Assembly (NCBI GenBank): GCA_028711445.1
Contig: JAQTSD010000016.1
Span: forward strand, 1-32,685
Reading direction: 5' to 3'
Length of the DNA: 32,685 nt
DNA from: Candidatus Peribacteraceae bacterium
Lineage (GTDB): Bacteria > Patescibacteriota > Gracilibacteria > Peribacterales > Peribacteraceae
Below are positions 4,181 to 19,569 of the stretch, one piece after another. Each line of letters opens with the position of its first letter. Position 1 is the stretch's first letter. The notes below the pieces were generated by a model, which saw only the letters and a program-made list of their open reading frames with translations, was not told the origin of the DNA and did no database searches. Made by a program: the position numbers and the translations under genes.

Positions 4181-5500
4181 TTAGAATTCTTTCTGCACCT
4201 CCCTCGTTTCCCGTGGAAGGAGCAATACGAGTCCTACCATTTCTGCAATGTGTCCGAGCGTGTAGCCAAGCGCGATGGAGTAGACGCCGAAGCGAGAGCT
4301 CAGGGTCCATGCCGCCGCGATGGCGATTGCCCCGTTCACGACGGTGAGCACTGCGGGAATCGTGGTGTGTTTGGCGGCGAAGAACGCCCGCGTGAAGAGG
4401 TGGTTCAAGCTCTCGAACGGGATGCTCACCGCATAGAGAATGAGGCACGTGAGGAATGCGGATACGTAGAGCGGAGCCAGGTGAATGAGCCAAACGGCGA
4501 GAGGAGTCGCGACGACGAGAGCGATCGCGCCGGAAATGGTGAAGAGAAGCATGAAGAGGATGCCCCTATGCATGTAGATCCAGAACCTCTGCCACTGTGC
4601 TTTCGCCGCAGCCTGGCTCAGAGGCGAGAAGAGCGACAGTGCGAGCGCCAGTCCCGTCACGCCGACGACGACGGACTGAAAGTTGCGCGCGTACGCGTTG
4701 ATCGCGACGGAGCCCGTCGAGAGACCTGAGGCGACGCGGTCGAACACAAGCAGTTCCAATTGCAATCCTCCGAGGGCGAGCATGCGCGGGACCATGAGCA
4801 ACCCCATTTCCTTGAGATCGGGATGCCACCACTGAAACCCCATGCGATACCCCGCAACCACAATCGCGAGCAGCCGCAGGAGTGCGTACGCGACCGCGCC
4901 GCAGAGTGTCCCGATGATCGGACCGTACGGACCGATGAGAGGCGTCAAAAACACGGTTCCGAGAATCGTTCCCAGTGTGTAAACGACCGGAGTGAGGCCA
5001 TAGACCCAGAAACGCTGGATGGTGTTCAGATATTGTCCGTAGGCATTTCCGAAGACGAAGAGAAAATTGGTGAGAAGGGCGATGCGGGCGAAGGAGGTGT
5101 AGAGAGCGAGACTCTCCCCCGTGAACTGCGTGAAGAGCGGCGCGATCCACGGGAACACGATAGCAAGTACGAGCGCCATCACGCCAAAGACGATGGCCGC
5201 CACGATAACGACCCCGTTTAAGAGCTCCGACATGCGCCGGTGGTCCTCATCCGCCCAGTATCGCGCGAGGAGCGGCACGAGCGCCACGGAGAAGCCGGCC
5301 ATGATGAAGATCTGGAAGAGCAGATCGCTCGGCCGGAAAGCCGCGATGTAGACATCCACGATACCGAGTCCCGGGAACGTCCGGTTGAGGAGATTGTCCC
5401 GGATGAGACCGGCGAACGATGCCAGAAACTGGGTGACGGCGAGGACGGCCGCACCCCCGAGGATGCGATCCTGGGCGAGAACAGGAAGGCGCAAGCGCAT
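4181..5500 (-). CDS. murJ: Lipid II flippase MurJ (MviN family)
   Basis: A 439-aa polytopic protein with about 12-14 hydrophobic segments. Hallmarks are the N-terminal FAGLIRDNLLNRTFPGLG (Arg/Asp-rich first loop), ALVPLLARYW, IALLTNFLFVFGNAYGQYLN and the C-terminal FESLNHLFTRAFFAAKHT, which matches the MurJ 'RaFYA..dt' motif. MurJ flips lipid-linked peptidoglycan precursor across the membrane. It is about 70 residues shorter than the E. coli protein, mostly at the C-terminus. The ATG is preceded by TACCCT and 6 nt, so the mRNA is probably leaderless. Together with murC and the ftsB-like gene it implies peptidoglycan synthesis. Confidence 0.92.
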   Translation of the reverse strand: MRLRLPVLAQDRILGGAAVLAVTQFLASFAGLIRDNLLNRTFPGLGIVDVYIAAFRPSDLLFQIFIMAGFSVALVPLLARYWADEDHRRMSELLNGVVIVAAIVFGVMALVLAIVFPWIAPLFTQFTGESLALYTSFARIALLTNFLFVFGNAYGQYLNTIQRFWVYGLTPVVYTLGTILGTVFLTPLIGPYGPIIGTLCGAVAYALLRLLAIVVAGYRMGFQWWHPDLKEMGLLMVPRMLALGGLQLELLVFDRVASGLSTGSVAINAYARNFQSVVVGVTGLALALSLFSPLSQAAAKAQWQRFWIYMHRGILFMLLFTISGAIALVVATPLAVWLIHLAPLYVSAFLTCLILYAVSIPFESLNHLFTRAFFAAKHTTIPAVLTVVNGAIAIAAAWTLSSRFGVYSIALGYTLGHIAEMVGLVLLLPRETREVQKEF

Positions 5501-5538: not shown

Positions 5539-5567
5539 TTGACCGTGAGACTTCTTCTACGCATAAT
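5539..5567 (+). promoter_or_regulatory. Promoter of the structured RNA
   Basis: TTGACC (5539-5544), a 17-nt spacer, CATAAT (5562-5567). Predicted transcription start is near 5574, just before the first hairpin. Confidence 0.7.
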
Positions 5568-5573
5568 TACCTC

Positions 5574-5907
5574 GAGGCAGCGGGTCACCCTGTCTGCCAC
5601 AACTTGTCGGAGGAGACTTCCCTTAAGAACCTGTGCGGCCCATCACACCACAGCCGAAACAGGTTATGGGAAGACCACGTGCGGAACACGTCCCATACGA
5701 CGTGATCGCGGGCGAACCCGCGACCTGACGGGAGATAGATAAGACGCTCCCTCGCTTCGCACTCCTCTCCTCCGCCCGGGGATCCCGGGAAGTGGTTGGT
5801 TCCACAGTGGAACCAGAAGCAGGGAATTGGCCCTCCCTGCAAACGTCGCACGATGGCATCGAACTTGATGTTGCCATGGCGATACGCCACTTCCCGGGGG
5901 CTTTTTC
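5574..5907 (+). ncRNA. Unassigned structured RNA, about 330 nt, with its own promoter and terminator
   Basis: This stretch between murJ and purL holds no credible protein but is dense in helices. It begins with a 5' hairpin GGCAG/CTGCC. A perfect 9-bp long-range helix pairs 5608-5616 (CGGAGGAGA) with 5766-5774. Nested inside are CTTCCC/GGGAAG (5617-5622/5668-5673), AACCTGT/ACAGGTT (5628-5634/5659-5665), CGGC/GCCG, ACGTG/CACGT (5677-5681/5687-5691), TCGCGGG-CGAA-CCCGCGA (5706-5723) and GGGAG/CTCCC (5730-5734/5747-5751). A 3' domain is closed by a perfect 12-bp stem (5784-5795/5887-5898) holding three hairpins and followed by GGCTTTTTC. It lacks the conserved boxes of RNase P RNA, tmRNA, SRP RNA and purine riboswitches as I know them. 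A purL leader element is the main alternative, but purL appears to have its own promoter. Confidence 0.65.
5887..5907 (+). terminator. 3' end of the structured RNA
   Basis: The 3' arm CCACTTCCCGGG (5887-5898) of a perfect long stem is followed by GGC and T5 (5902-5906). This is the likely Rho-independent end of the RNA, 51 nt before the purL ATG. Confidence 0.55.
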
Positions 5908-5919
5908 TTAAAGATGAAG

Positions 5920-5948
5920 TTCTCATCGATACGCTCATGCTGCATAAT
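5920..5948 (+). promoter_or_regulatory. Promoter of purL
   Basis: TTCTCA (5920-5925), a 17-nt spacer, CATAAT (5943-5948). The ATG at 5958 is 9 nt further, implying a leader of 2-3 nt. Confidence 0.45.
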
Positions 5949-5957
5949 GCGAATGCG

Positions 5958-8447
5958 ATGAAGAAAGTATCTGCTCCAGCGGCTTCCGTGCTCGCATTCT
6001 CAAAGATGAATGACAGCGAGGTGAAGGCGGCGCTCACGGAGCATCGCATCGGCCTCACCGTTTCCGAAGCGCGCAAGGTTTCGACGATGCTCAAGCGCGA
6101 TCCGACCGTGGTGGAAGCTGTCATCTGGGGGATCCAGGGGAGCGAGCACTGCAGCTACAAATCTTCGCGAAGGTTCTTAAAGACCCTCCTCACGAAAGGC
6201 CAACATGTTATTCTCGGTCCGGGCGAAGACAGCGGTATCGTCGCGATCACCGATGCACCGAAAGGCGAGCGTTGGGGGTTCGTCGTCTCCCACGAGTCGC
6301 ACAATCACCCGTCACAGATCGTCCCGTTCGAAGGGGCGGCCACGGGCATCGGCGGTGTGGTGAGAGATGTCGTGTGCATGGGCGCACGGGTAATCGGTTG
6401 TATGGATAATCTCCGCCTCGGAGACTTGCAGACGGAGGAATCGACGGCAATCGCGAAAGAAGTCGCTCGCGGCATTGCCGGCTACGGCAATCCTCTGGGC
6501 ATCCCGAACCTCGGCGGGGATACGGTTTTCGACGCCTCGTACAACTCGAATTGTCTCGTGAACGCCATCGCCTTCGGGATCGTGAAGGAAAACGAAATCA
6601 TTCATAGCACGGTGCCCGAGGAGGCAGGCAAAGTAGGCTATGACATCATCATCGTCGGCAAGCCGACCGATTTTAGCGGCTTCGGCGGTGCGAGTTTCGC
6701 GAGCAGCTCGATGGAAGAGGATAAGCGCGAAGCCAATGCGGGCGCCGTGCAGGAGCCAAACCCTTTCCTCGAGCGGCACTTGCTCGCTTCCACCTACGCG
6801 CTCTTCGACTGGCTTGTGAAAACGGGCAATCTCCCGCGCGTGAGTTTCAAGGATCTCGGCGCCGGCGGCGTGGTGTGTGCGAGCGTCGAACAGGTGGCGG
6901 ACCGCGGCTTCGGCGCGGAAGTGGAGCTCGCCGACGTTCATGTCTCCGTTACCGGCCTCCCGGCAGAAGTGATCGCCTGCGCCGAGACGCAGGAACGCTT
7001 CTGCTGGATCTGCCATCCCGACCTCACTGCCCACATTCTCGATCACTACAACAAGGATTGGGATCTGCCATCCATTGCCGAAAACGCGCGTGCAAGCCGC
7101 ATCGGCTCTGTGACGGAAACGGGCGTCTATCACCTCACTTACCGCGGCGAAACCGTCTGTGAAGCGAAAGCACTCGATATCACCTGTGGTCTCCAATACG
7201 TGCGACCAACGAAACCTCGTCCGTCACCGAAAGCGGAACCCCTGATCCGCTGCGAGGGTGACAGGATGGAGGTGCAGCTGCCGGGTAGGTCCTTCAAGAC
7301 ACGCCTCTCTGATGTCTTTCATGCTCTCCTCTCCCACCCGTCCTACGGCTCTCCTTCGCCGGTCATCCGTCACTACGACAAGGATATCATCGGCATCTCT
7401 GTCATCGAAGCAGGTGAGGCGGATGCCGGCGTCATCGCTCCGCTGCGCGATCTGCCAAGTTTCATCCACGTCGGCACGCACCCGGGATGGGATGTGCGCG
7501 AGGAAGATCGCTTCCGGGGCGTGGCGGTGTCCGCGGACGGCCGAGGCCGCTATGGAAGGATTTCTCCATATCTGCAGGGATTCAATGCCGCAGTGGAAGC
7601 GATGCGCAACGTTGCCGCTGTCGGCGCCATCCCGCGGGCCCTCACCGACTGCCTCAACTACGGCAATCCCGAAATTCCCGAGCAGCTTTGGGAACTCGAA
7701 GAGGGTGTGCGCGGCATCGGCGATGCTGCTGCCAGCATAACCATGCGCGGCGAGCACGTACCCGTGATCTCAGGGAATGTGAGTCTCTACAATGGTCGCC
7801 CGGATGGGAGCGCCATTGACCCCACCGCCGTCGTCTGCTGCATCGGTATCCTCCCGGATGCACGCAAGGCCGTCACGATGCAACTGAAATCCGCCGACTC
7901 GCTCTTGCTTATGGTCGGTGATCGTCGTGATGAGTGCGGCGGCGGCGCGTACTACGAAGTACTCGAGTCCCTTGCCGGCACCGCGCACGATCAACTGCTC
8001 GGCTTCAGAGTACCCACTCCCGATCCGACAGAACTGTCACGCCAGATCGAACTGGTAACGTCACTCACTGATGAAGGAATGCTGCGATCTTGTCACGATA
8101 TTTCGGATGGCGGGCTCCTCCTCGCGCTCTTCGAAATGACGCTCCCTCAGCGCAAAATCGGCGGATCGATCGGCGTAAACGTGGATCTCGCTGCGCTCGA
8201 AAGCGACCTGCGCTCTGACACCCTCCTCTTCAGCGAAACGGGTGGATTCCTCCTTGAGATCGACCGGAGAAACGAGCAAATCATTCGCAAGCGAGCTTCC
8301 GCCTTGAAAATCTCCATCTGCACGATCGGCTCGACTCTGGCCACCCCCACTCTGCGCGTAAATCACGGACCAACCACTCTCCTAAACGAAGATCTGGGAG
8401 AAACCTTAAAAATATGGAATCTTGCATTGAAATCGAGATTTGAATGA
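5958..8447 (+). CDS. purL: Phosphoribosylformylglycinamidine synthase, PurL
   Basis: An 829-aa enzyme from the chosen start. It makes formylglycinamidine ribonucleotide from FGAR, ATP and ammonia in purine synthesis. Hallmarks are GSEHCSYKSSR, ILGPGEDSG, SHESHNHPSQIVPFEGAATGIGG (metal/FGAR binding, in pieces), the glycine-rich GFGGASFAS, DLGAGGVVCAS, GNPEIPEQLWEL, ISGNVSLYNG and the C-terminal CHDISDGGL. It is the small PurL type without a fused glutaminase domain, so PurQ and PurS partners would be encoded elsewhere. It is somewhat longer than the usual 740 or so residues. The frame stays open to 5796, but that part overlaps the structured RNA and lacks PurL homology. No other pur gene lies nearby. 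Confidence 0.93.
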   Translation: MKKVSAPAASVLAFSKMNDSEVKAALTEHRIGLTVSEARKVSTMLKRDPTVVEAVIWGIQGSEHCSYKSSRRFLKTLLTKGQHVILGPGEDSGIVAITDAPKGERWGFVVSHESHNHPSQIVPFEGAATGIGGVVRDVVCMGARVIGCMDNLRLGDLQTEESTAIAKEVARGIAGYGNPLGIPNLGGDTVFDASYNSNCLVNAIAFGIVKENEIIHSTVPEEAGKVGYDIIIVGKPTDFSGFGGASFASSSMEEDKREANAGAVQEPNPFLERHLLASTYALFDWLVKTGNLPRVSFKDLGAGGVVCASVEQVADRGFGAEVELADVHVSVTGLPAEVIACAETQERFCWICHPDLTAHILDHYNKDWDLPSIAENARASRIGSVTETGVYHLTYRGETVCEAKALDITCGLQYVRPTKPRPSPKAEPLIRCEGDRMEVQLPGRSFKTRLSDVFHALLSHPSYGSPSPVIRHYDKDIIGISVIEAGEADAGVIAPLRDLPSFIHVGTHPGWDVREEDRFRGVAVSADGRGRYGRISPYLQGFNAAVEAMRNVAAVGAIPRALTDCLNYGNPEIPEQLWELEEGVRGIGDAAASITMRGEHVPVISGNVSLYNGRPDGSAIDPTAVVCCIGILPDARKAVTMQLKSADSLLLMVGDRRDECGGGAYYEVLESLAGTAHDQLLGFRVPTPDPTELSRQIELVTSLTDEGMLRSCHDISDGGLLLALFEMTLPQRKIGGSIGVNVDLAALESDLRSDTLLFSETGGFLLEIDRRNEQIIRKRASALKISICTIGSTLATPTLRVNHGPTTLLNEDLGETLKIWNLALKSRFE

Positions 8448-18743: not shown

Positions 18744-19331
18744 CTACTTCTCCTTTGCTTCCTCAATCTGCTTTTGTATGAGATTGTGCACGAGCAAATG
18801 CCGCGGGTCATTGAGGATTTCCGTGATGAAGCGATCCCGCAGGCTCAAGCGATAGAGGAAATCTGCCTGCGAGAAGATGGAGTACTTCACGTTCTTGAGA
18901 TTGGGATCTTGCAGAAGCAGGGCTTCGATCATCTCCTTTTTGATATCCCCCACCACGAGGAGATCCACCTTGCTTTCCGTTCCCACAAAATTGCCGGCCA
19001 GCAGAACCAGATCCACGCCGGGGAGCTTCTTCAGACTCGCGACAATCGGGCTCTCTGCCTGCACTTCTTTGGCGAAGATATTGCGAAGCTCTGGATAGAG
19101 GGGGAACTCCTGATCTACCCGATAGTATTTCTTGCGATTCTTGTGCCGTGCCTTCACGAGGCCGATGCGGCGAAGATTTTCGAGCTCTCTGCGAATAGAG
19201 TTGATCTGTTCATGAAGCAAGCGCGTGAGTTCACGAATGAAGTACTCCTCATCCTGATGAAGGAGAAACGTACTCAGGAGCTTCACCCGAGTCTGTGAGC
19301 TGAACAGTGATTTAAGAATCACCGAAGACAT
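18744..19331 (-). CDS. Winged-helix regulator fused to a nucleotidyltransferase-like domain
   Basis: A 195-aa protein. Residues 1-75 or so form a winged helix (LFSSQTRVKLLSTFLLHQ, then YFIRELTRLLHEQINSIRRE as the recognition region, and LVKARHKNRKKYYRVD as the wing). Residues 95-190 resemble an MNT-type nucleotidyltransferase fold (VDLVLLAGNFVG, VDLLVVGD), but the usual G-S loop is G-N and only one acidic pair is visible, so catalysis is doubtful. The proteins I know with this layout are predicted regulators. An in-frame GTG two codons upstream (19337) is an alternative start. A repeat-containing promoter lies directly upstream. Confidence 0.75.
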   Translation of the reverse strand: MSSVILKSLFSSQTRVKLLSTFLLHQDEEYFIRELTRLLHEQINSIRRELENLRRIGLVKARHKNRKKYYRVDQEFPLYPELRNIFAKEVQAESPIVASLKKLPGVDLVLLAGNFVGTESKVDLLVVGDIKKEMIEALLLQDPNLKNVKYSIFSQADFLYRLSLRDRFITEILNDPRHLLVHNLIQKQIEEAKEK

Positions 19332-19339
19332 GTTCACAA

Positions 19340-19369
19340 ACTGTACTCATGTACTCACAGATAGCGCAA
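19340..19369 (-). promoter_or_regulatory. Promoter with operator-like repeats, HTH gene
   Basis: Minus strand: TTGCGC (19364-19369), an 18-nt spacer, TACAGT (19340-19345), 8 nt to the ATG. The spacer and -10 contain direct repeats GTACTC (19343-19348 and 19351-19356 on the plus strand) flanked by CTGT/ACAG, a plausible autoregulatory site. Confidence 0.45.
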
Positions 19370-19380
19370 GAAAGTTGATC

Positions 19381-19480
19381 AATATAATGAATAATTATTG
19401 TGATCAGAAATTTAGGCTTTAATTAGATTAAATCTATAATTTATTGTCATTAATTACTTGTTCCAATGAACAATAATTAT
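19381..19480. repeat. AT-rich intergenic island with distant inverted arms
   Basis: ATAATTATTG (19391-19400) and CAATAATTAT (19471-19480) form a perfect 10-bp inverted repeat around an AT-rich core. The whole of 19370-19560 is far more AT-rich than the genes on either side, and no gene is visible in it. Confidence 0.5.
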
Positions 19481-19569
19481 ACTCAACTTTGTACTACTAT
19501 TGTGTCCTAATATATCTTTCATCTCCTGGAGCGCCCGGAGCGCTCATATGGAGAGAAATAGGCATCGAA

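Follow-up and report, generated by a model that had tools for sequence, protein, structure and literature searches.

A structured RNA gene between murJ and purL of Candidatus Peribacteraceae, probably a stand-alone and lineage-restricted noncoding RNA

The gap between murJ and purL in the genome of a Candidatus Peribacteraceae bacterium holds a gene for a structured RNA, at positions 5574..5907 of the + strand (predicted transcript ~334 nt). All positions refer to the window, that is, the whole stretch of 32,685 nucleotides that was analysed. The assignment is based on the folding energy of the region, on homologues in two other genomes, on compensatory changes and on a permutation of the variable letters. 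We favor, with a probability of about 0.68, the view that this is a stand-alone, lineage-restricted structured ncRNA of ~330 nt acting in trans; the trans action itself is a probable feature.

The host genome (G000) comprises 1.25 Mb in 45 contigs, with a completeness of 99.7%. Judging from purL, its nearest named relative is the Candidatus Peribacteria MAG DMXL01000001.1 (91% identical purL), followed by a Candidatus Peribacteraceae MAG. The RNA is flanked by the divergently oriented murJ (lipid II flippase; 4181..5500, - strand; Pfam PF03023, E 2e-44) and by purL (FGAM synthase large subunit; 5958..8447, + strand; Pfam AIRS, AIRS_C and FGAR-AT linker). A sigma-70-type promoter, TTGACC-N17-CATAAT, precedes it at 5539..5567 (+ strand), with the -35 box at 5539-5544, a 17-nt spacer and the -10 box at 5562-5567. 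This promoter, already proposed in an earlier sequence-only reading of the same DNA, matches the consensus in 10 of 12 letters, and two promoter-like sites occur in 700 nt, vs 0.1 expected. Its position is kept in the two homologous loci described below, as TTGACC..CATAAT in G001 and as TTGACA..AAAAAT in G007, in place despite the diverged flanking letters. The T5 tract that the sequence-only reading placed after a 12-bp stem was likewise found, at 5902..5906 (+ strand), and TTTTT also occurs 3' of the corresponding helix (P8) in both homologues, consistent with an intrinsic terminator. By consensus and positional conservation, the RNA thus appears to have its own promoter and terminator, like an independent ncRNA gene.

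The + strand of 5574-5907 was predicted to fold with an MFE of -158.9 kcal/mol, whereas dinucleotide-shuffled versions averaged -117.8 ± 5.4 (z -7.6, 0/100). The complementary strand folds less strongly (z -4.4), so that the RNA probably corresponds to the + strand, as promoter and terminator also indicate. When 198 segments of 330 nt were scanned over both strands of the window, the RNA gave the lowest value (z -7.9; next, -5.9) against a background with mean z -0.3 and sd 1.5. The second-lowest segment, 19164-19493 on the - strand (z -5.9), is partly AT-rich intergenic DNA and has no Rfam match. Elsewhere in the window, positions 354-683 also fold strongly (z -6.0, + strand), with two hairpins that are probably terminators, one of 16 bp (CGAAAAACCGCGGG/CCCGCGGUUUUUCG) and a long one with CAUCGCUGUGUC.

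The two long helices pointed out by the sequence-only reading are both part of the MFE structure: the 9-bp helix 5608-5616/5766-5774 (CGGAGGAGA/UCUCCUCCG) with a mean pair probability of 0.98, and the 12-bp stem 5784-5795/5887-5898 (CCCGGGAAGUGG/CCACUUCCCGGG) with one of 0.94. The description of at least six perfect hairpins inside the former had to be corrected, since there are seven helices and four hairpin loops.

All helices lie on the + strand. The structure starts with a 5'-terminal hairpin, P1 (5576..5598), whose base, GGCAG..CUGCC, is invariant and is followed on the 3' side by an invariant CACAA; its upper 4 bp are swapped for four compensatory pairs in G007. In domain I (5608..5774), taken from the MFE structure and found with the same topology when the G007 RNA was folded independently, P2 (5608-5616/5766-5774) closes P3 (5617-5622/5668-5673) and P4 (5679-5685/5756-5762). 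Two extensions of P3, 5628-5634/5659-5665 and 5636-5639/5653-5656, are absent in G007. P4 encloses the hairpins P5 (5687-5692/5699-5704), P6 (5706-5712/5717-5723) and P7 (5730-5734/5747-5751), and P4-P7 are mostly replaced by compensatory pairs in G007. Domain II (5783..5899), supported by both MFE and alignment, is a four-way junction and the most conserved part of the RNA. Its closing helix, P8 (5783-5796/5886-5899), doubles as the terminator stem and contains P9 (5797-5804/5808-5815), P10 (5819-5825/5834-5840) and P11 (about 5845-5858/5872-5883). In the three-sequence alignment, invariant or near-invariant unpaired letters cluster at 5816..5844, namely GAA (5816-5818), the P10 loop RAAYUGGCC and AAAC (5841-5844), which makes this stretch a candidate contact surface.

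Comparison of the murJ-purL gap among relatives, a check proposed along with the sequence-only reading, returned two homologues. Searched at the DNA level, 40 relatives yielded a copy in G001, from the same genus (95% identical), and a 3'-domain match in G007, from another genus; over the whole RNA, the G007 copy is 62% identical and, at about 298 nt predicted, shorter. Both copies are flanked by murJ (-) and purL (+) and retain promoter and T5. Folded alone, the G007 RNA gave a z of -5.3 and the same topology as G000, so that the two have in common P1, P2 closing P3 and P4, P4 closing P5-P7, and P8 closing P9-P11.

For a pair-by-pair count between G000 and G007 we used a structural alignment made by hand, helix by helix, with P2 and P11 excluded for their ambiguous register. 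Forty of the 64 pairs are unchanged, 2 are changed on one side, 22 are changed on both sides, and none has become non-standard. Even when RNAalifold was run on the raw MAFFT alignment, in which P4-P6 are misplaced, 10 pairs were still found to be changed on both sides. As an alignment control, we also permuted only those G007 letters that differ from G000, shuffling them among their own columns. Starting at -145.8, the energy rose to -112.7 on average (z -5.3, 0/300 as good), a cost of about 33 kcal/mol, and the reciprocal permutation gave a z of -5.4, whereas ten purL and murJ segments from the same two genomes, treated as controls, gave z values from +0.65 to -2.8. Between G000 and G001 there are 14 substitutions. 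With them, the energy on the G000 structure is -157.4, a value less favorable in 98.5% of random placements, and 2 pairs are broken vs 4.1 expected, a difference that is not significant by itself.

The structure has therefore been kept by compensatory change, on a comparison of three sequences that amount to effectively two independent ones, and we conclude from these alignments that selection acts on the base pairing of the murJ-purL RNA. The original argument that so many long pairings in a short gap point to a real RNA is supported by the fold (z -7.6), by the syntenic homologues and by the compensatory changes.

To follow the distribution of the RNA, we built a covariance model, R1, on domain II. 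It matched G000, G001 and G007 only, both among 74 genomes of the order and among 353 genomes of the class, and G000 and G001 only in a 380-genome sample of the phylum; the large searches used stricter filters, by which weak matches may be lost. No match was found in phage and plasmid collections, and a phage or plasmid origin was rejected on that ground. As far as these searches reach, the RNA appears restricted to two Candidatus Peribacteraceae genera. A DNA search based on the G007 copy retrieved the known homologue plus short matches, many of which fell in copies of a palindromic, C/T-rich dispersed repeat.

The murJ-purL stretches of G010 and G020 reached 10 and 7 bits with R1, respectively, through the terminator stem only, and we do not claim homology for them. 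Both genomes hold structured stretches in this neighborhood. In G010, a candidate small RNA lies beside murJ (L017:826-975; z -5.3), with a -10 box TACAAT, an 11-bp GAAA hairpin and a long terminator stem, CCCUGGAGAAG..CUUCUCCAGGG, followed by T5. In G020, a stretch between murJ and purL (L030:1273-1425; z -5.0) is structured and has a terminator, without an Rfam match.

If the RNA is a separate unit, RNA polymerase would start near 5574 and stop near 5907, and the released RNA, presumably stable, would act in trans. The unpaired GAA, RAAYUGGCC and AAAC of domain II, together with the invariant CACAA 3' of P1, would most likely be where a protein or RNA partner binds, with the RNA serving as a scaffold or regulator. 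Some resemblance can be seen to the large structured bacterial ncRNAs OLE, GOLLD and ROOL, which form RNA-only homo-oligomers (PMC12286853). Like these, the murJ-purL RNA appears to be stand-alone, with an elaborate fold and a conserved multi-branch structure. It differs from them in having no Rfam covariance match and no phage or plasmid match and in being known from only two CPR genera so far; and at about 330 nt it is smaller than OLE, with its about 600 nt (PMC9723947). A more speculative idea, to which we give a minor but real chance, is that this is a new RNA class, which either arose in Peribacteraceae or evolved beyond recognition elsewhere, possibly an RNP or a multimeric RNA machine working in a 1.25-Mb genome, and that the neighboring genera (G010, G020) may hold unrecognisable counterparts in their murJ-purL gap.

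Among competing explanations, the one that fares best, albeit an unlikely one, is a cis-acting purL attenuator or riboswitch, in which the domain II terminator would gate read-through from the promoter at 5539. The RNA does lie directly upstream of purL in 3/3 genomes, its intrinsic terminator ends 50 nt before the purL start codon and, as in riboswitch and T-box leaders, a structured RNA with such a terminator precedes a purine gene. Unlike in those leaders, no antiterminator is conserved, no Rfam riboswitch model matches, and a promoter of purL itself is predicted right at the start codon. The latter (TTCTCA-N17-CATAAT, with a TG-extended -10; 5920..5948, + strand) is separate from the RNA promoter and downstream of the RNA terminator, leaving 9 nt between its -10 box and the start codon at 5958. 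In the purL upstream regions L013-L037, CATAAT- or CATACT-type -10 boxes lie 8-20 nt ahead of the purL start in many genera, and they are found at this distance in many members of the family that do not have the RNA, suggesting that purL transcripts in this family may be near-leaderless or carry a short leader. Boxes so close to the start codon suggest that the RNA is a unit separate from purL. Furthermore, dozens of family members carry purL without any such leader, and murJ adjoins purL in several relatives lacking the RNA, meaning that the synteny is not specific.

A possible antiterminator is offered by an invariant CUUCCC/GGGAAG common to P3 and P8, through which the 5' strands of the two helices (P3-5'/P8-5') may pair; this pairing is in fact the MFE of the G007 RNA truncated before the terminator strand. 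In G000, however, the alternative is ~15 kcal/mol worse than the truncated-RNA MFE, which argues against a conserved switch, and we rejected this antiterminator, the one candidate switch examined, as strongly disfavoured there; no terminator/antiterminator switch was thus found to be kept. Of the two options left by the sequence-only reading, a novel or lineage-specific ncRNA and a large purL leader, the former stands, given the lack of an Rfam match, the compensatory changes and the narrow distribution, while the latter has become improbable because purL has its own predicted promoter, as it does in relatives without the RNA.

The size and compactness of the RNA recall several established classes, and we estimate as very improbable that it is a diverged 6S RNA, SRP RNA, RNase P RNA, tmRNA, T-box or other known RNA, a notion that has mostly been refuted already. 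Searches against Rfam 15, one of the checks proposed earlier, matched no family with the G000 RNA at gathering or relaxed thresholds, nor with the G007 copy, relaxed E-value included; the reported absence of RNase P RNA, tmRNA and SRP RNA features was borne out, as none of these models match. RNase P RNA (RF00010) and tmRNA (RF00023) do resemble our RNA in length and in their compact multi-helix fold, but neither model matches it, and both genes occupy other loci of this genome (RNaseP_bact_a at G000:C12:8607-8981; tmRNA at G000:C20:29765-30174), implying that it is not a diverged form of either. With 6S RNA (RF00013) it has in common an intergenic location, a structured nature and its own predicted promoter, plus a pur link proposed in the sequence-only reading. 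We rejected this candidate, too: the 6S model does not match, the fold lacks the shape of a single long hairpin opened by a central bubble, and 6S-like RNAs are found at other loci of the sister species (G001:C2) and of G007 (G007:C8), while the 6S search in the G000 genome gave nothing at threshold.

For SRP RNA (RF00169, RF01854), a consideration in favor is that neither model detected one in six Peribacteraceae genomes (G000, G001, G005, G007, G012, G022), in which a relaxed domain IV signature pattern also gave nothing convincing. The candidate was nonetheless rejected, since the murJ-purL RNA gives no match and lacks the domain IV signature (GGAA loop, AGCAG side), and relatives without detectable SRP RNA do not have this RNA either. 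The SRP RNA of these six genomes, as an observation apart, is either lost or very diverged. T-box and hammerhead look-alikes seen by eye (GGGUGGAUCCGCG in G007; CUGAYGG) were dropped as not conserved or coreless. A literature search found no description of the murJ-purL RNA. As no known family fits, we regard it as a new family within an established general kind, the stand-alone structured bacterial ncRNA.

It is equally hard to credit that the region is a short gene, for a small protein or with a dual function. A frame in domain II, VVGSxVEPEAGNWP, is common to G000 and G007, with differences at third positions except in one codon. Half of the third-position changes, on the other hand, are two compensatory pairs of P9, leaving ~4 independent in-phase events (by our estimate, a chance of ~1 in 27), and the frame diverges straight after this peptide in G007 through a 2-nt insertion; neither start nor stop is common. 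The RNA sequences of G000, G001 and G007 do not all share an ORF that agrees in frame and peptide, and small ORFs were rejected as not conserved across the three.

Similarly remote is the idea of a DNA element, whether palindromic or mobile, or of an elaborate terminator that serves no RNA function: dispersed palindromic repeats do exist in Peribacteraceae and a 25-nt piece of the G007 RNA resembles one, yet the RNA is single copy within its own genome (DNA search), matches no phage or plasmid, has a promoter at its 5' end and shows a nested multi-branched structure with compensatory changes. The dispersed repeat itself, CCCCCTCTCC..GGAGAGGGGGCTAGGGGGAGAGG, is found in many Peribacteraceae genomes, at L051-L055 and at numerous further loci of the order.

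Patescibacteria have streamlined genomes, and where G000 carries a 330-nt RNA gene, no more than a short spacer is present in related genera. In such a genome, an RNA maintained under selection is likely useful to the cell. The murJ-purL RNA, absent from Rfam, could seed a new family, and it illustrates how the ncRNA content of the CPR is under-sampled.
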